From Deltaproteobacteria bacterium (lineage in GTDB: Bacteria > Myxococcota_A > Polyangia > JAAYKL01), in NCBI GenBank assembly GCA_016935665.1, contig JAFGQN010000203.1, positions 1-49,236 on the forward strand: a stretch of DNA of 49,236 bases, read 5' to 3'. The notes below the pieces were generated by a model. The model ran no database searches. It had not been told where the DNA came from and saw nothing but the letters and a program-made list of their open reading frames with translations. Positions 6,491 through 32,133 of this stretch are shown here, one piece after another (position 1 is the first letter of the stretch; each line of letters opens with the position of its first letter). The position numbers and the translations under genes are program-made.

Positions 6491-7782
<1,292 letters not shown>

Positions 7783-7806
7783 TTTCTGAGTAAATCAGAT
7801 TGTTAA

Positions 7807-7839
7807 GCCGCTCCTCTTTATTGAGGGGCGGCTTTTTTT
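7807..7839 (+). terminator. Rho-independent terminator of gap
   Basis: A 10-base-pair GC-rich stem is formed by GCCGCTCCTC (7807-7816) and GAGGGGCGGC (7823-7832), with one G-T wobble and a six-base loop. Seven T residues (7833-7839) follow immediately. It lies 24 bases after the gap stop codon. Confidence 0.93.
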
Positions 7840-7945
7840 ATTGGGGGGGCCAGGGGGATTCGTTGACAAAGTTGAGATGGTCCATGTGTAATTGCGGGGT
7901 TTGTCCCTGAAGATCAATCACATATCTGAAAGTATCTTTGGGAGA

Positions 7946-8104
7946 GTAGGGTCCGGGGTTTATCCCCGGCCGTCGACATAGGATCTCCGGCGAGGTTGGA
8001 AATGCACTCCGGCTCATTCCTTGTATATAGATTTTCAGGTGCGCATTTTTGGCTGGAACCCATCTGGAACTCGCAATCGGCCGGGGATAAACCCCGGACC
8101 CTAC
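7946..8104. repeat. MITE-like segment bounded by perfect 27-bp inverted repeats
   Basis: Bases 7946-7972 and 8078-8104 are exact reverse complements over 27 bases. Each arm starts with GTAGGGT (read inward from the outer end) and contains its own hairpin CCGGGG-TTTAT-CCCCGG. The arms are separated by 105 bases without coding signal. I see no matching target-site duplication at the outer edges, so this may be two head-to-head copies of a dispersed palindromic repeat rather than a transposed unit. Confidence 0.8.
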
Positions 8105-8227
8105 ATTTTTGGTATACATTACAAACTGTGATCAATGATCAGGGGTTGTCCCCGCCGATTCTTTATTTCGACAGAGCCGCCCAGCAAACATAGGGGGGCG
8201 CAAGATCATGATTTATTGGAAAATAGA

Positions 8228-8252
8228 GTAGGGTGGCAATTTATCTGCCACC
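8228..8252 (+). repeat. Dispersed palindromic repeat, variant stem
   Basis: The unit starts with GTAG and forms a perfect 7-bp stem GGTGGCA / TGCCACC around the loop ATTTATC. It matches a unit at 12829-12853 on the opposite strand at 22 of 25 positions. It shares the GTAGGGT lead and the TTTAT loop with the 27-bp units at 7946 and 8104, but has a different stem. Confidence 0.7.
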
Positions 8253-8264
8253 GTGACCGATAAG

Positions 8265-8290
8265 CGGCCGGGTTCAACCTCGGGCCCTAC
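8265..8290 (-). repeat. Degenerate copy of the palindromic repeat
   Basis: Read on the minus strand this begins GTAGGG and ends CCCGGCCG, like the 27-bp units at 7946 and 8104. The middle has diverged and the hairpin is imperfect. Confidence 0.55.
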
Positions 8291-8334
8291 ATTCATTTGA
8301 TCGGCTGTTGCGATAGCCCTGCCAGCAAACCGAA

Positions 8335-9621
8335 TCAGTTTTTACGGATGGGACCAAGGTGGGTGATATACCAGTCTTTGCCCCAGTTAATGAGGACCTG
8401 GATTTCAAAGCGACGCTTTTTGTCACCATTGGATGCCGACACAATGTTTCTGGTACAGGACCAATATGCCACTTTGTTGGCCTCTGTTCCAGGCGCTTTC
8501 CAATTGCAGCTACCGAGTTCAATATCGTCCACTTTCCACCCCATATCCTTGAACCGAGCGCGTTCCTGCTGGAAATCCTCTTTGTACCATTCCAACAATT
8601 TATTGTGATAGCGCCCCGGATTGGGAGAGTCCTTTACAACATTAAACGCTTCGGCGGGGAAGAAGAACGGCATGGCATCGTCAACGGTGTTGGTTGTGAA
8701 TGCGGTCAGCAGTTTTTGAGCGCCGGTCAGTGCACTGTCTTTTTTTGGGGGGGATCCCTGGCTCTGGTTGTCCGCTGGGATATTCCCATTTCCTGCTTCG
8801 GAATCGTTGGCAACTGAAGCATTTTTATTGTCTTTTGCAGGGGGATGGTTCCCCAGCATGTAGGGATACGTAAATCCTCTAAAGCAAGCGGAAAATTTGG
8901 GAAGTGCCGTTTTAGGAAGAAGCGTTTCCAGCTTTTGGATCACACATTTTTCCACATCAGTGCCGGTGAACTTGTTTTTTTTAGCATAGGCGTACACGAG
9001 TTTTCCATCTCCGGTGGCGACAACGCGCGTGGACATTGCTTCAATCACGGGGCTGTCATGACATTTGGCCAGTTCTCTGGTCAATGTTCCCATTGCCTGC
9101 TGATATTCAACGACGTTTGGAAAATAGGGCAGTTTTTCGGCGGGATCCGGCGTAGGGGGCTCTTTGCAAATGATATTTTTTTTCTTCAGTGTTTTGAGCA
9201 CCAGGAGTCGTTCTTTAACACCCTGAATCAGCATGGAATCGTTGTAATGCCCCTCCAGAATTTTGAGCGCTTCTGTGTAAAGCGTTTCCGCTTTGTCATA
9301 CTTCCCCATTCGCACGAGAACAGATGCTTGATCATCGAGTGCCGATGCATAGACATCGCTTCCGGGTTTCACCTGTTGAATGGCTTTTTCAAACAGAGCG
9401 AGCGCATCTCCGTTGTAACCCGTTCTCTTGAGTTTATAAGCGTCTTTAATTATCTTTTGATAATCGCCAGTGCCCCTGGGAAGCGCTTGCTGTTTATTAT
9501 CATTTCCGGCAAACGATGGTTCGTTCTTTTTACAGCCGACTACTGCGGTTGCAACACAGATACAGATGAATGCAGTACGAGTCGGTCTCAAGACAGATTT
9601 AAACATGGATTTTCTTTTCAT
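8335..9621 (-). CDS. TPR lipoprotein with AgmX/PglI-like and C-terminal NTF2-like domains
   Basis: The protein is about 428 aa. A signal peptide ends in the lipobox VVGC (Cys about 30), so it is probably anchored in the outer or inner membrane. Residues about 60-145 hold two or three TPR-like helical repeats (NGDALALFEKAI, KYDKAETLYTEALKIL). The middle part, with VVATGDGKLVYAYAKK, EKCVIQKLE and FTYPYML, resembles the AgmX/PglI C-terminal domain. The last 120 residues look like a small alpha/beta domain, perhaps NTF2-like. ATG 9621 was chosen over 9636 because GGAG lies 9 bases upstream. It is divergent from the peptidase gene at 9747 with 125 bases between. Function is unknown; an envelope scaffold or assembly role is only a guess. 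Confidence 0.75.
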   Translation of the reverse strand: MKRKSMFKSVLRPTRTAFICICVATAVVGCKKNEPSFAGNDNKQQALPRGTGDYQKIIKDAYKLKRTGYNGDALALFEKAIQQVKPGSDVYASALDDQASVLVRMGKYDKAETLYTEALKILEGHYNDSMLIQGVKERLLVLKTLKKKNIICKEPPTPDPAEKLPYFPNVVEYQQAMGTLTRELAKCHDSPVIEAMSTRVVATGDGKLVYAYAKKNKFTGTDVEKCVIQKLETLLPKTALPKFSACFRGFTYPYMLGNHPPAKDNKNASVANDSEAGNGNIPADNQSQGSPPKKDSALTGAQKLLTAFTTNTVDDAMPFFFPAEAFNVVKDSPNPGRYHNKLLEWYKEDFQQERARFKDMGWKVDDIELGSCNWKAPGTEANKVAYWSCTRNIVSASNGDKKRRFEIQVLINWGKDWYITHLGPIRKN

Positions 9622-9746
9622 TAGAGGTTGCTCCATATAAGTGTGTTAATGTTTTCAGTAAAAACGAGCGCAATATAGTACGTTCCGCTCTCATTGACAA
9701 TGGTCGGATACTGGACCTGAATTCTGGAGACTGTTACAAAGAAACC

Positions 9747-10445
9747 ATGACGTTCGGCAAGGGTTTTTCCAAAAACTTATTTTCGATTCTCACTGTGATT
9801 GCGATGGGCGCACTGTGTGCGGCGGGCGCTGTGGTATTGGCCATGCCGCTGGATGAATCCGATTCTCCGGAGCACAGTTTTTTTCAGCAGGCCCAAGACA
9901 ATACTGTTTGCGAGACGTCCGCGGTAGAAATAAATCGAACGCGGAGCGGTACTGATAAAACCCTGCTGAGGCAATACAACAGCTTTGGGACGGTGTCACG
10001 TCCTGGAGTGGTGATGCCGGTGGCAACCCTGTACAATGCGCATACCAGAGAGACGCTTCCCATTTTTGACAGTCCCAAACCCAAACCGGAATTGGTTCGG
10101 CATTTTTTTAGATGTCGCGGCTTCGGCGAGACTGTGGATATGGCTCCGGCGCTCCTCGACGTGCTCCTGGCCGCCGCAAGGCAGTTTCAAGCGAAACGGA
10201 TTTCCATTATTTCGGGTTATCGGTCACCCAAATTCAACGATGCGCTTGCCAAGAAGGGGCGTCGCGTCGCTGCCGAGTCACGGCACATGAAAGGCGAGGC
10301 AGTGGATTTTCGTTTGGATACGGTTGAAGCGCGAGAGCTGGGCAAATGGCTGCGAGAAAACTTTGAGGGCGGCGTGGGTACATATCGCGCCGATAATTTC
10401 GTTCATGTGGATGTGGGACCGAAACGAAGCTGGAATGGACATTAA
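9747..10445 (+). CDS. M15-type (DUF882/YcbK-like) peptidoglycan peptidase
   Basis: This 232-aa secreted or membrane-anchored zinc peptidase has an N-terminal hydrophobic segment (residues about 11-33). The C-terminal domain contains SGYRSP (156-161), SRHMKGEAVDF with H180 and D187, and FVHVDVG with H220. These are the three zinc ligands of the DUF882/M15 family, whose E. coli member MepK cuts peptidoglycan cross-links. The expected role is cell-wall remodelling in the periplasm. The downstream thioredoxin-like gene begins 78 bases later on the same strand. No good Shine-Dalgarno precedes the ATG. Confidence 0.85.
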   Translation: MTFGKGFSKNLFSILTVIAMGALCAAGAVVLAMPLDESDSPEHSFFQQAQDNTVCETSAVEINRTRSGTDKTLLRQYNSFGTVSRPGVVMPVATLYNAHTRETLPIFDSPKPKPELVRHFFRCRGFGETVDMAPALLDVLLAAARQFQAKRISIISGYRSPKFNDALAKKGRRVAAESRHMKGEAVDFRLDTVEARELGKWLRENFEGGVGTYRADNFVHVDVGPKRSWNGH

Positions 10446-10523
10446 TACCGGGTGGTATTGGGGGTGGGCGATGCGCCTTTGCCGGAATTCCGGTTGGCGT
10501 TTGTGGCAGGAGGAATTATACAG

Positions 10524-11144
10524 GTGAGCATGATGCTTGAGAAAATAGAGAAAACAGTTGCCCCCAAATTGTCCGGAAAACAGCTGGTATTGTTGTTTGG
10601 GGTTGTATCGGCGTTTGGTGTGTTGCTGGTGCAGTATTTCGCCAAAGTCAACGAAGGGCTGGCGCATTACCAGGCGGCTGAATTTCAGATTGTCGCCCCC
10701 GATTACGAAGCGGATTCCACAAATGCAAAAACCGTGGCGGATTTTATGCTTGTGGATTCGCAAAATCGAAATGTCAAACTGAGTCAATTCAGCTCGGTAG
10801 ATGTTTTGGTTGTAAATATCTGGAGTGCCGGCTGCCCGGTGTGCCGACAGGAAATCCCTTCGCTGACAGAGCTGGATCGCCGGTTGTCTGGGGAGGAGGG
10901 CGTGGCGCTGATAACCATTGCGGTGGCTGAAAGCTTCGAGGAGGTGGCCAGTTATTTCCCCAGAGGCACCAATCTGCGCATTTTATTCGACAAAGAAGAC
11001 AAAATCGCCGGTGGTGTTTTTGAAACGGAAAAATATCCGGAAACGTTCATTCTGGACAAAAAACGGCGCATTCGCGCACGATTTGACGGGCCCAGAAACT
11101 GGCACGGCGATACATTCATCAATTACGTGAAGTCCTTTTTGTAA
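10524..11144 (+). CDS. Membrane-anchored TlpA/ResA-like thioredoxin
   Basis: The protein is about 206 aa, with one N-terminal membrane helix (about 18-38) and a periplasmic redoxin domain. The active site WSAGCPVC (C104, C107) and the following EIPSLTEL match TlpA/ResA proteins, which reduce periplasmic disulfides or help cytochrome c maturation. The C-terminus has the cis-proline-type segment KYPETFILD and then IRARFDG. The frame opens at 10452, but GTG 10524 has a perfect AGGAGG (10508-10513) ten bases upstream, whereas ATG 10530 would be 16 bases away, so I take the GTG. It probably shares a transcript with the upstream peptidase. Confidence 0.85.
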   Translation: MSMMLEKIEKTVAPKLSGKQLVLLFGVVSAFGVLLVQYFAKVNEGLAHYQAAEFQIVAPDYEADSTNAKTVADFMLVDSQNRNVKLSQFSSVDVLVVNIWSAGCPVCRQEIPSLTELDRRLSGEEGVALITIAVAESFEEVASYFPRGTNLRILFDKEDKIAGGVFETEKYPETFILDKKRRIRARFDGPRNWHGDTFINYVKSFL

Positions 11145-11402
11145 CCTGGTTTGTGACTAATTCGTTGTCATAATATTCCCGGTCGCCGTGTGACGAAAAA
11201 CAGCGTCGCGAAAACGATGTCGCAAATTGCATCACAGTGTTGTTCCAGCCGGTTTTAGTTGTATAGTGTTTCCATCAAAAAACAGGAGTGGCGGGGATGC
11301 TGGAAAACGTTGCGATGCATGCGCCGATGGATTAGTGCCGGCCATTTTTCATTCCGGCGGTGTCAACGGGGTGGGACAACAGTTTCGATGGGAGAATCGA
11401 GA

Positions 11403-12734
11403 ATGCGTTTTGAGCACGACACGGACCCCAAACGTGCGATTACACAACGAATCGGCCTGCAAGACAGCACTGAGAGCGCCATTTTAAAAAAGCTTAGTGT
11501 TGTTGACGTTGGCGATGAGCTGGTAAAAGTGTACACGGATGACAGGTCCACATTTGAATTGATTCTCAGTTCCGGTTTCTGGCCGTCGCAGCAGTCATCG
11601 GTGGGCGAATCCATTAAAAAATTCAGTGAACAATGCAATAAGGCGCCTGGCGTCACCGAGCAGTTTCGAGAGCAGTTGTCGACGCTGGTCTTAAAGGAGG
11701 GCGTGGGCCCTGCATATTCCCCACGAGGCGCTGAGCCGCGTCACGTCAGGCAGGGCGGCGTGGTCCCATTGGAAGATTATGACTCCAGAGAGGCATTGTT
11801 TCCCGCGTCAGCAAAGGAATCAGCTGGAAAGGACCAAATAAGTGTTGTCGGAGAGTTATTTCCGGAATATGAGAAGAAGCCACCAAATGTCAGGGAAGGA
11901 CATTATTCCTGCAAATCTTCCCTGAAAGGCAAACTATCCGGTGAAACCCACCGGATTGACGATAACAACATGATCGGCTCTGACAATCTGATTCAGACCG
12001 TTCATAAACTGATACCGGGTTCAATGATTCAACACAAAACAGGACAACGTAATTTGCTGATTTTGCTTACTTTTGCGGCTGTATGTATCGCTACTGTTGC
12101 GGTGGTGTTGGCTGTGGTGAAAATTAGAAAGCAATCCCCGGATGACGTGACCGTGGTTTCCGCGGTGATGGTCCAGGCTGTTAATGATCCCAATGTGGTA
12201 ACGGCTGGCAAAATAGAAGGCAAAGTGTTGACAGGCGGCGGTAAAGTGAGCGCTTCCGGTACAGGTAGTGCATCTGCCTCAAAGACATCTGCGCAAAGCG
12301 CACCGCAGCCATCTGCCCATCCCGCATCTTCGATGACCAATACACGCACCGCGTCAACAAACGGTGAAAAGCCCAACAGCGCAGACGGCATAGACTCGGT
12401 GTCGAAAGGATTAAACGTTGCACCCGGTGAGTTGAAGGGGGAGGAGCCCTCGCAAACGAAAGCAACGTCACCCCTGGCGCCTGCTCAGGCTGAGATTGAT
12501 AAAGCGCTCGCGTCCTTCGAAAAATCGGTGAACAACTGCAAAATGCACAATGACTACCCTCTTACCATGCAACTGGTCGTGGATGGCAAAACCGGCAAAG
12601 TGATTCGCACAGAAACTGTCGATCGCAAATTTTCAGGAACGACGATTGGATACTGTGCATCCAGCGCCGTCCTTTCCGCCGTTCTCCCGATTATTGCCAG
12701 CGGCAAACAATACTCTGTGGAACATAACTTTTAG
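11403..12734 (+). CDS. Single-pass membrane protein with AgmX/PglI-like C-terminal domain
   Basis: The protein is about 443 aa. The first 215 residues are soluble and unrecognised. A membrane helix lies at about 217-241, followed by a Ser/Ala/Thr/Pro-rich linker. The last 85 residues have the pattern of AgmX/PglI domains: SVNNCKM, VVDGKTGKVIRTE, then IGYCASSAV. Such domains are recurrent in Myxococcota gliding, polarity and envelope proteins. N-in/C-out topology is likely. I picked ATG 11403 because GGAG (11391-11394) sits 8 bases upstream; ATG 11388 and 11259 lack one. The distal domain is shared with the lipoprotein at 8335-9621, hinting at a common envelope process, but the substrate is unknown. 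Confidence 0.72.
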   Translation: MRFEHDTDPKRAITQRIGLQDSTESAILKKLSVVDVGDELVKVYTDDRSTFELILSSGFWPSQQSSVGESIKKFSEQCNKAPGVTEQFREQLSTLVLKEGVGPAYSPRGAEPRHVRQGGVVPLEDYDSREALFPASAKESAGKDQISVVGELFPEYEKKPPNVREGHYSCKSSLKGKLSGETHRIDDNNMIGSDNLIQTVHKLIPGSMIQHKTGQRNLLILLTFAAVCIATVAVVLAVVKIRKQSPDDVTVVSAVMVQAVNDPNVVTAGKIEGKVLTGGGKVSASGTGSASASKTSAQSAPQPSAHPASSMTNTRTASTNGEKPNSADGIDSVSKGLNVAPGELKGEEPSQTKATSPLAPAQAEIDKALASFEKSVNNCKMHNDYPLTMQLVVDGKTGKVIRTETVDRKFSGTTIGYCASSAVLSAVLPIIASGKQYSVEHNF

Positions 12735-12828
12735 GCTGTCAGCCACACTGATTTCCATGGGGATCCCCGCCCCGGAGCGGGCGTGTGAATGTGGGTGTTT
12801 AAACAATTATTCGTTGCCTGGAGGACTC

Positions 12829-12859
12829 GGTGGCAGATAAACTACCACCCTGCTTTTTT
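12829..12859. repeat. Copy of the palindromic repeat followed by a T-run, possible terminator
   Basis: GGTGGCAG (12829-12836) pairs imperfectly with CTACCACC (12842-12849) around ATAAA. Read on the minus strand, 12853-12829 matches the unit at 8228-8252 at 22 of 25 bases, including the loop TTTATC. Six T residues at 12854-12859 follow on the plus strand, so it may terminate transcription of the 11403-12734 gene between convergent genes. Confidence 0.55.
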
Positions 12860-12892
12860 CCTGGAAACTTGAAATGCGTGAGCAGGGGAAAC

Positions 12893-14131
12893 TTATCGTT
12901 TGATGCGTCCGGCAGCAGCGGCGGCTTTCAAACGAACCGCATTGATGCGAATGAAACCGGCTGCATCCTTCTGGTCATAGCCCCCTTCAATATCCATACT
13001 GGACATGTCTTCGTTGTACAGGGAATTGGGGCTTTTTCGTCCCGTCACATAGACGCCGCCCTTGTACAGTTTGAGCGAGACCACTCCGTCCACGGCTTCC
13101 TGGCTTTTATCCACGATGGCGTTGAGGAAATCCATTTCAGGGCTAAACCAGAATCCGTTGTAAATGGCATCCGCGTATTTCTGAACAATCATGTCGCGGA
13201 TACGCATCACTTCGCGATCCATGGTGATCCCTTCGAGGTCGCGATGGGCGAACAGGAGAATCGTGCCGCCAGGGGTTTCGTACACACCACGGGATTTCAG
13301 ACCGACGAAACGGTTTTCAACGATATCCACTCTGCCGATACCGTTGTCGTGTCCCAGCCTGTTGAGATAGGTAAACAGCGCCAGAGCATTTTCCACAACG
13401 GTGCCGTCCGTCTCATTTTCCACTTTAACAGGAACACCCTTGCTGAAGGTGATATTGATATTTGTGGGTTTGTCCGGAGCGTCTTCCGGATCCACTGTTT
13501 TACTGAAAACGTCTTTGGGGGGACGGAAGAACGGATCTTCCAGGACGCCGGCCTCATGACTGATATGAAGCAGATTGTCATCTTCGCTGTACGGTTTCTT
13601 GTGGGAGACGGTGGTCTGAATCCCATGTTTGGCCGCATAGTTGAGCAAATCCGTGCGCCCTTTGAATTCATCGAGAAATTCCTGCATTTTCCAGGGGGCA
13701 ATAATCCGGATGTCGGGTTTTAACGCGTAAAAGCCCAGCTCAAAGCGCACCTGATCATTTCCTTTGCCGGTGGCGCCGTGGGAGACATACTCCGCGTTTT
13801 CCTTTTCGGCTATTTCGATATGGCGTTTGGCAATAATGGGACGGGCGATACTGGTGCCCAACAGATACTGCCCCTCATAAATGGTGTTGGCTTTGAACAT
13901 CTGAAAGATGTAATTGGTCACAAACTCTTCTTTGAGATCTTCCACATATACTTTGCTGGCGCCGATTTTGAGCGCCTTTTCTCGGGCCGCCTCGAAATCG
14001 TCATCCTGACCAACATCGGCGATGTAGGCGATCACTTCGAATTCGCGCTCCAGTAACCATTTCAGGATGATGGACGTATCCAAACCGCCACTGTAGGCGA
14101 GAACCACTTTCTTTTTGGCTTCTGTATTCAT
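12893..14131 (-). CDS. argG: Argininosuccinate synthase
   Basis: This 412-aa cytoplasmic enzyme joins citrulline and aspartate with ATP to form argininosuccinate, the penultimate step of arginine synthesis. The N-terminal PP-loop is AYSGGLDTS (residues about 12-20). Other family motifs are [35 protein letters not shown] and ITMDRE. Length matches the family norm (about 400-445). No other arginine gene is within the window. The next upstream gene on the same strand (SNF2 helicase) ends 152 bases away, so argG may have its own promoter. Confidence 0.97.
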
Positions 14132-31188: not shown

Positions 31189-32133
31189 TCAGTTTGTCCT
31201 GGCAGGGGAAAGGTCAACCACACAGTAATTGAAGGGAATCGCGGCATCCACGCGGCCCGCTGCGTAAACCTGAACAGCCTTGATTCCAATCGCTGTCGAG
31301 TAGGGAATTCCACTGGTTCCCCAACATTCGCTTTTAAAGTTACTCCAGGCAATAGTGGCGATACCATTGGAAAACTCTGTACAGTAGCCAACGCCATTCT
31401 CTGCCATGATTTCGATTCGCAATGTGGCTGATGTGGATTGGGTTATATTCACGTTAATTCCCGAGTAAGAGATTCCCGCATACCACGGTGCGATGATGTC
31501 GCTGCCTTTTTCCTGCTTTACATTAAATCCGATGGTTCCCAGCGAGTTAAAGCTTTCAATGAGCGCCCCATGAACACAGATGGCTTTTTCACTCAGCACA
31601 TACTCGCCATCCAGCTGATTGATGGTGCCTCCCGCCTCAAGGCCGGTACTCGTCCATGCGTTGCCGTGCCAGTCGCCTGCAATGACATACGGACCCGTCA
31701 TAGTGGTGTCAATATCGGCATCCGTTGTGTCCGAGTCCGGATTATTGATGGTATCGGTGTCACTGTCCGTTTCGGCGTCATTGTCGGTATCCGTGTCCGT
31801 ATCCCCATCTGTATCTGCATCGCCATCCGCATCAGTGTCGCCGTCGCTATCCGTATCCCCGTCCGTGTCCCCATCTGTATCCCCATCTGTATCTCCATCT
31901 GTATCCCCATCGGCGCTGGTATCCATTGAGGGAGAGCGATCACTGACAGAGTCCGTATTCGTCTCCCTTTCACTGGCAAGAGCCGTATCTGTTTCGCTAT
32001 CTGTGGTGTCCGTGCTGTCTTCCGGGTCCGAAGTTGGAACATCCCAGTTTTTCAGGCCTTCCACCTGCTCTTCACAGCCGAATAGAAACAGTCCAAATGT
32101 GAACAGTATAAATAGCAAATTTGTTTTGCGCAT
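31189..32133 (-). CDS. Lipoprotein with Asp/Thr/Gly repeat linker and C-terminal beta-rich domain
   Basis: This 314-aa lipoprotein has a signal peptide ending in the lipobox LFGC (Cys20). Residues about 35-145 are a low-complexity linker of Asp, Thr, Gly, Ser and Glu, with tetrads such as DGDT repeated many times; such acidic linkers are likely calcium-binding stalks and are common in Myxococcota surface lipoproteins. The last 165 residues start with AGDWHGNAW and contain two to four Cys and many aromatic residues, compatible with a beta-sandwich such as a carbohydrate-binding fold, but I cannot name a family. It is probably surface-exposed. Confidence 0.8.
   Translation of the reverse strand: MRKTNLLFILFTFGLFLFGCEEQVEGLKNWDVPTSDPEDSTDTTDSETDTALASERETNTDSVSDRSPSMDTSADGDTDGDTDGDTDGDTDGDTDSDGDTDADGDADTDGDTDTDTDNDAETDSDTDTINNPDSDTTDADIDTTMTGPYVIAGDWHGNAWTSTGLEAGGTINQLDGEYVLSEKAICVHGALIESFNSLGTIGFNVKQEKGSDIIAPWYAGISYSGINVNITQSTSATLRIEIMAENGVGYCTEFSNGIATIAWSNFKSECWGTSGIPYSTAIGIKAVQVYAAGRVDAAIPFNYCVVDLSPARTN
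31871..31906. repeat. 12-bp tandem repeat in the Asp-rich linker
   Basis: Three near-identical copies of CCATCTGTATCC (plus strand) lie head to tail at 31871-31882, 31883-31894 and 31895-31906, with looser copies upstream to about 31790. They encode the GDTD tetrads of the lipoprotein linker on the minus strand. Near-identity at DNA level suggests recent slippage expansion. Confidence 0.85.

Follow-up and report, generated by a model that had tools for sequence, protein, structure and literature searches.

The palindromic repeats in the window, which is the whole stretch of 49,236 nucleotides analyzed here, most likely belong to a RAYT-type REP family, whose A/B hairpin pair became enclosed by ISAs1 ends and was then dispersed through transposition of the ISAs1 type. 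Two different transposition systems have thus probably spread the REP pairs. This interpretation draws on the hairpins and their pairing, on the flanks of a gene for a REP-associated tyrosine transposase (RAYT), on terminal inverted repeats (TIRs) with target-site duplications (TSDs) outside them, and on ISAs1 genes with matching ends.

The features of the window are listed in Table 1, in which the z-scores compare folding as single-stranded DNA with that of shuffled sequences. The segments 7946–8104 and 8191–8321 are different arrangements. The sequence-only reading had reported at least four units with a conserved lead and a TTTAT loop, and the four that it located were confirmed in place, far beyond chance: when the window was shuffled with its dinucleotides preserved, the mean number of matches to either hairpin pattern at up to 3 mismatches was 0.00. 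The reported identity over 27 bases between 7946–7972 (+) and 8104–8078 (−) was confirmed, and 8228–8252 (+) and 12853–12829 (−) both read GGTGGYAR..TTTAT..CTGCCACC, the second with the lead GCAGGGT and a T·G wobble. The TTTAT loop is present, but in the 8228 copy it forms just part of a 7-nt loop.

Table 1. Features of the REP-carrying segments of the window
Feature	Position	Strand	Basis or remark
Left block: degenerate REP, spacer, hairpin A	7895–7972	+	resembles the sequence upstream of the C118 RAYT gene
Hairpin A, GTAG + GG-T-CCGGGG/CCCCGG-CC	7946–7972	+	pattern search and fold (z −2.9)
Right block: hairpin A, GGTATACATT..TGATCAATGATCA spacer, degenerate REP	8077–8154	−	resembles both C118 RAYT flanks
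Hairpin A, inverted copy, identical to 7946–7972	8078–8104	−	repeat listing, pattern search, fold (z −2.9)
Left TSD, CCAGCAAACA	8181–8190		9/10 identity with 8322–8331
Complete 131-bp MITE with a B + A' REP pair as cargo	8191–8321		ends, length and flanking duplication checked
Hairpin B, GTAG + GGTGGCA/TGCCACC	8228–8253	+	fold (z −4.4)
Degenerate hairpin A, partner of B 8228–8253 in one unit	8264–8290	−	R1 match
Right TSD, CCAGCAAACC	8322–8331		9/10 identity with 8181–8190
Solitary hairpin B, lead GCAGGGT, partner lost	12828–12853	−	pattern and fold (z −3.8)

The same reading explained the two stem types as stems swapped by compensation. This explanation is wrong: A and B are the two partners of one pair, and a compensatory swap between them is ruled out, since both coexist within one unit. 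Accordingly, the claim that stem changes keep pairing fails between A and B and holds inside each hairpin, where the paired changes are real. Only hairpin B was noticed at 8228 because the A half there is degenerate (z −0.8 when folded alone), and the reading also missed the 8290–8264 half and the TIRs and target duplication around 8191–8321. The location of many pairs of this genus inside a TIR/TSD transposon, likewise not noticed, is the more unusual part.

The MITE at 8191–8321 has the ends TAGGGGGGCGCAAGATC (left) and CAGGGCTATCGCAA (right, reverse complement), which were read by eye and then checked computationally; the left end is degenerate, with TAGGG in place of CAGGG. As background for the duplication, 9/10 identity was reached by 2 of 40,000 nearby offset pairs. 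The enclosed unit (8228–8290) matched R1, a covariance model for which 14 paired units were used, with 71.4 bits, and a match of 38.3 bits covers 12797–12853, near which (12828–12853) a search for TIRs gave none that was convincing. Elsewhere in the window, positions 31735–31920 hold a low-complexity run with copies 12 and 18 nt apart, which overlaps a predicted minus-strand ORF (31189–32133).

In a full unit, the GTAG-tagged hairpin B is separated by about 13 nt from a reversed hairpin A that ends in CTAC, so that the two form a head-to-head pair, about 64 nt long, whose GTAG tags face outward. As in GTAG REPs, the tag stands at the foot of a 20–40-nt hairpin that occurs in many copies, and, as in REPINs, the inverted REPs keep a conserved spacing, seen in an alignment of 31 units of 60–65 nt, chosen as near full length from the own genome (G000) and the sister species G001 and G002. 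In these 31 units, pair 7–23 of hairpin B is C-G in 23 and U-A in 6, and pair 47–53 of hairpin A is G-C in 14 and C-G in 12. The covariation score was 0.186, compared to 0.107 (sd 0.009) for shuffles, none of 500 of which scored as high, and to at most 0.061 for slid partners; because related copies are not independent, it reflects structure-keeping change rather than a number of events. The hairpins therefore keep pairing through paired substitutions in each half. A C-G/T-A dimorphism of the same kind after GTAGGG appears for Enterobacter sakazakii in a published table of REPs (PMC2817692).

Across the own genome, hairpin A was found in 37 places and hairpin B in 44 (up to 3 mismatches), whereas the reversed-pattern controls gave 0 and 0. 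The covariance model, a check that the sequence-only reading had proposed along with the genome-wide search, matched the 8.16-Mb assembly 100 times at E≤0.01. This figure may differ from the true copy number, since the assembly collapses these repeats: at least 29 of its contig ends, 15 on the B side and 14 on the A side, lie in class-1 copies that are nearly identical. R1 matched in 10 of the 96 genomes searched, the own genome included. Within the own family, it matched in the own genome and 7 of 13 others (G001, G002, G004, G005, G007 and G010, and weakly G012); outside the family, it matched in 2 of 82 genomes, both weakly, so that almost none was seen elsewhere in the class. Separately, a Chitinispirillaceae MAG contig (Zod data set; L233, 1–86) starts with a class-1 MITE end; mis-binning seems likelier than transfer here, because the two R1 matches of that genome are one copy cut at a contig end and one weak match.

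The search for a RAYT, likewise suggested by the sequence-only reading, was successful. The own genome has 14 Y1-transposase matches, and one Y1 gene, on contig C118, scored 97.3 bits against the NCBIfam REP-associated tyrosine transposase model (cut-off, 80). Hairpin A lies in inverted copies on either side of this gene, the downstream copy overlapping its 3' end. The GTAG-tagged hairpins, their head-to-head pairing and their position at the flanks of a RAYT gene above a curated cut-off bear out the proposal of REP-like mobile repeats. In G010, of another genus of the same family, the remnant of a RAYT 3' end is followed by this hairpin with a comparable spacer, and a relic on the own-genome contig C24 retains the 5' part of a RAYT with the hairpin.

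Window positions 7895–8154 resemble the flanks of the C118 RAYT, the gene itself being absent. The left block is 74% identical to the C118 upstream flank over 78 nt, and the right block is 91% identical to the upstream flank over 79 nt and 96% to the downstream flank over 68 nt; the 105-nt core between the inverted A copies (7973–8077) gave no blastn match to the RAYT gene. In the 47 sources covered (some overlapping, three of them ISAs1 loci), no further Y1/RAYT locus gave an R1 match, and a search of the sister species for a close RAYT relative gave 0 matches in G001 and only 27–32% in G002. From its flanks, the C118 RAYT would be expected to cut these hairpins, and the GTAG REP family would be, or would have been, served by it. 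The own genome also has another REP-like array, GTAGAGACGTAGCATGCAACGTCTC, which is unrelated to this family and present in both orientations; it lies roughly 1 kb from a different Y1 transposase ORF (contig C210; L019, 2755–3006).

In this genus, the pair often lies inside a MITE of 120–140 bp, which is bounded by terminal inverted repeats of the CAGGGCAATCG type and flanked by target duplications of 10 bp. These elements are short and non-coding, have TIRs on both sides and are flanked by a target-site duplication. Outward of the pair stand inverted ends such as CAGGGCAATCGCAAAGTC, followed by 10-bp direct repeats, and three end classes, CAGGGCAATCGCAAAGTC, CAGGGTTATCGCAAG and CAGGGCAATCGAGTTCT, enclose the same core. 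Palindromic units match on both strands, so that the totals of 78 and 106 fetched matches are no measure of copy number. Among the fetched matches, the ends were classified on one strand per place, with own-genome copies cut by contig ends left out, for 50 rows from the own genome (one too short), 5 from G001 and 10 from G002, and, in other genera, for 3 from G004 (one too short), 5 from G005, 22 of 41 matches from G007 and 12 from G010. Several contigs, C61, C63, C77 and C92 (L100, L101, L106 and L110), stop 33 nt inside another repeat, whose end, CAGGGCAATCGCAAGAATGAAATGTTTTCTAAA, matches the A-side end of the class-2 MITE in L118.

Of the 49 own-genome units with enough flank, 17 had TIRs on both sides when up to 2 summed mismatches were allowed (control, 0), and 27 when up to 4 were (control, 1); recognizable ends were absent in 22. 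The automatic scan that gave these counts did not recognize the left TIR of the window element. Direct repeats of at least 7/10 stood exactly outside the TIRs in 12 of the 17, and a combined TSD and TIR score of at least 20 was reached by 7 of 55 units, compared to 7 of 2000 random positions; this automatic score chose wrong ends for the window element. The duplications are perfect (10/10) in L118, L125, L129 and L132 and 9/10 in L126, L144 and the window element. In the sister species, an end motif at up to 4 mismatches accompanied 3 of 5 units in G001 and 2 of 10 in G002, without clear duplications. In the other genera, the classified pairs are bare: an end motif was seen in 1 of 22 in G007, 0 of 12 in G010, 1 of 5 in G005 and 0 of 2 in G004, with controls of 1, 0, 1 and 0, respectively. 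On this sample, enclosure in a MITE characterizes this genus, above all the own genome, and is superimposed on a bare REP pair that occurs family-wide.

The ends point to ISAs1 as the parent family. The inverted repeats of ISAs1 elements are given in PMC11946415, in its account of this family, as 14–22 bp starting with CAGGG, with a 10-bp direct repeat, and the MITEs have CAGGG ends, 10-bp direct repeats and ends in common with ISAs1 transposase genes. In a collection of 84,980 species genomes, 92 stretches contain the exact 18-mer end CAGGGCAATCGCAAAGTC, and 80 of these stretches were listed as loci. Ends of this type bracket or adjoin ISAs1 transposase genes in L195, L225 and L179 and a disrupted gene in L171, and among these four a perfect duplication at both ends is found only in L171; the transposases between shared 18-mer ends belong to NF033564. 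In the sister species G002, an ISAs1-type gene lies between CAGGGCAATCGAGTTCT ends, the class-3 MITE end, with a perfect 10/10 duplication, GCACTTTCTG. Unlike the ISAs1 insertion sequences, the element here has no transposase, and its interior is the REP pair.

No intact ISAs1 transposase was found in the own assembly: PF13808 gave 0 matches, and just the C-terminal end is present, at five contig ends. All five contigs share the same terminal 84 nt, in which the reading frame gives KKRKRCAYDPDYILEVLAA followed by a stop. This peptide aligns to the very C-terminal end of the transposases in L195 and L225, with none of 300 shuffles aligning as well, and not to that of the transposase in L179. 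Because the assembly breaks at these repeats, the ISAs1 body may be missing from it rather than truly absent. To count as ISAs1-derived, an element does not need a trans-acting ISAs1 copy in its own assembly.

We therefore favor the following order of events. The REP pair, of the RAYT type, would predate the genus. Within this genus, it would have become enclosed by ISAs1-type TIRs, forming a MITE of about 120–140 bp, and would then have been amplified. The ISAs1 DDE transposase of a full-length insertion sequence would act in trans on the MITE ends, and the whole package would insert with duplication of a 10-bp target. Because three end classes carry the same core, several ISAs1 relatives probably took part in amplifying the pair. 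Counted against this interpretation are the lack of an intact ISAs1 transposase in the own assembly, the own-genome units without ends, the decay of the window element in its TAGGG end and its A half, and the lack of a close RAYT in the sister species.

The reverse order, in which the hairpin pair arose within an ISAs1-derived MITE and the bare pairs are MITEs that lost their ends, is unlikely. It follows a proposal for the small copies of QMITE2 in Coxiella, described as TIR-less and REP-like in PMC5896051, and it would suit the Lujinxingia loci fetched in this analysis, where every hairpin match lies between or beside TIRs. However, the bare pairs of G007, G010, G004 and G005 show end motifs no more often than the control, and the RAYT flanks in those genera carry the hairpin without TIRs.

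A plain REP/REPIN family moved by the RAYT only, with the outer inverted repeats as REP-linked decoration or preferred insertion palindromes, was the first hypothesis after the RAYT was found, and it was set aside when the outer TIRs and 10-bp duplications were found. The RAYT with its flanking hairpins, the bare pairs of other genera and the own-genome units without ends all agree with it, as do the GTAG dimers inside palindromes described in part of Di Nocera 2013 (PMC3733652). We consider it improbable, because the 10-bp direct repeats stand outside the TIRs and not outside the REPs, and because the TIRs match ISAs1 ends and build other MITEs that lack these hairpins.

It is equally doubtful that the hairpins act mainly as RNA, as 3'-end stabilizers or terminators under selection: convergent ORFs surround each of the two sites in the window (GAPDH and a TPR ORF at the first, ORF 11259–12734 and argininosuccinate synthase at the second), and the substitutions are paired and include a wobble pair, but the TIRs and duplications are left unexplained, no terminator was called on the units in 7700–8400, and a terminator role is not needed because GAPDH has its own terminator-like hairpin at 7805–7834, upstream of all units. 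The RNA element that the sequence-only reading had offered as an alternative is unsupported as a known family, because Rfam gave 0 matches at gathering score in 7400–13200.

ISAs1 ends enclose hairpin pairs in other lineages as well. Within the 80 loci, 32 ISAs1-end elements of less than 500 nt were found. Five of them, in Lujinxingia vulgaris TMQ2, hold two facing GTAG hairpins whose sequence is quite different from A and B; a sixth (L240) passes the GTAG-hairpin detector on one side only, and L213 fails it, yet has both hairpins with 1–2 mismatches. These seven elements carry duplications of 8–10/10. The detector gave a hit on each of the two strands in 177 of 20,000 random Lujinxingia stretches and in 10 of 20,000 from the own genome, in draws that include the elements themselves. 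In a groundwater deltaproteobacterial MAG (L189, 3073–3248), an ISAs1-end MITE with a 10/10 TSD holds a facing pair of CGTC-tagged hairpins, read by eye. The association with GTAG is not universal, because most other elements hold palindromes without this tag. These elements raise the tentative possibility that extragenic palindromes have, in ISAs1 transposition, a second and general means of dispersal, by which host REP-like dimers were enclosed between ISAs1 ends and amplified in separate lineages, with GTAG here and in Lujinxingia and CGTC in the MAG. If so, CGTC REPs, which in the relevant part of PMC3733652 apparently have no dedicated transposase, would gain a route of spread.

The repeats share with published GTAG REPs, REPINs and REPtrons, in the parts of PMC2817692, PMC3116915 and PMC3733652 that treat them, the GTAG tag, the 20–30-nt hairpin, the head-to-head heterodimers, stem subfamilies with paired changes, a repeat-flanked RAYT and a location between convergent genes. 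Unlike those repeats, many pairs here lie inside a TIR/TSD transposon. Transposition by RAYTs, which are IS200/IS605-type enzymes, is not known to create ends of the TIR/TSD type.

In Anabaena variabilis, GTAG-15 dimers are regularly enclosed by a longer palindrome, as here; the section of PMC3733652 on this case reads these as target palindromes and assigns no duplication or transposase. QMITE2 of Coxiella burnetii is a clear published precedent, and the one found, for a GTAG REP inside a TIR MITE: as described in PMC5896051, in its treatment of these elements, it measures 150–190 bp, has 7–11-nt direct repeats and lies mostly 3' of genes, and its small TIR-less copies resemble plain REPs, as do the bare pairs here. 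Compared to QMITE2, the core here is a heterodimer, the direct repeats are of 10 bp, the parent IS family is identified as ISAs1, and bare pairs occur in sister genera. From titles and the starts of abstracts, mostly outside subscription journals, no ISAs1-based MITE carrying REPs was recognized.

REPs rank with the most common repeats of bacteria, and a domesticated single-strand transposase is held responsible for their spread. The presence of such a pair within a DDE-type MITE with target duplications indicates that a wholly different transposase can carry REPs. Because the recognition sites of both candidate enzymes share one 130-bp piece of DNA, the question is testable. For CGTC REPs, packaging by ISAs1 may provide a mobilizer.
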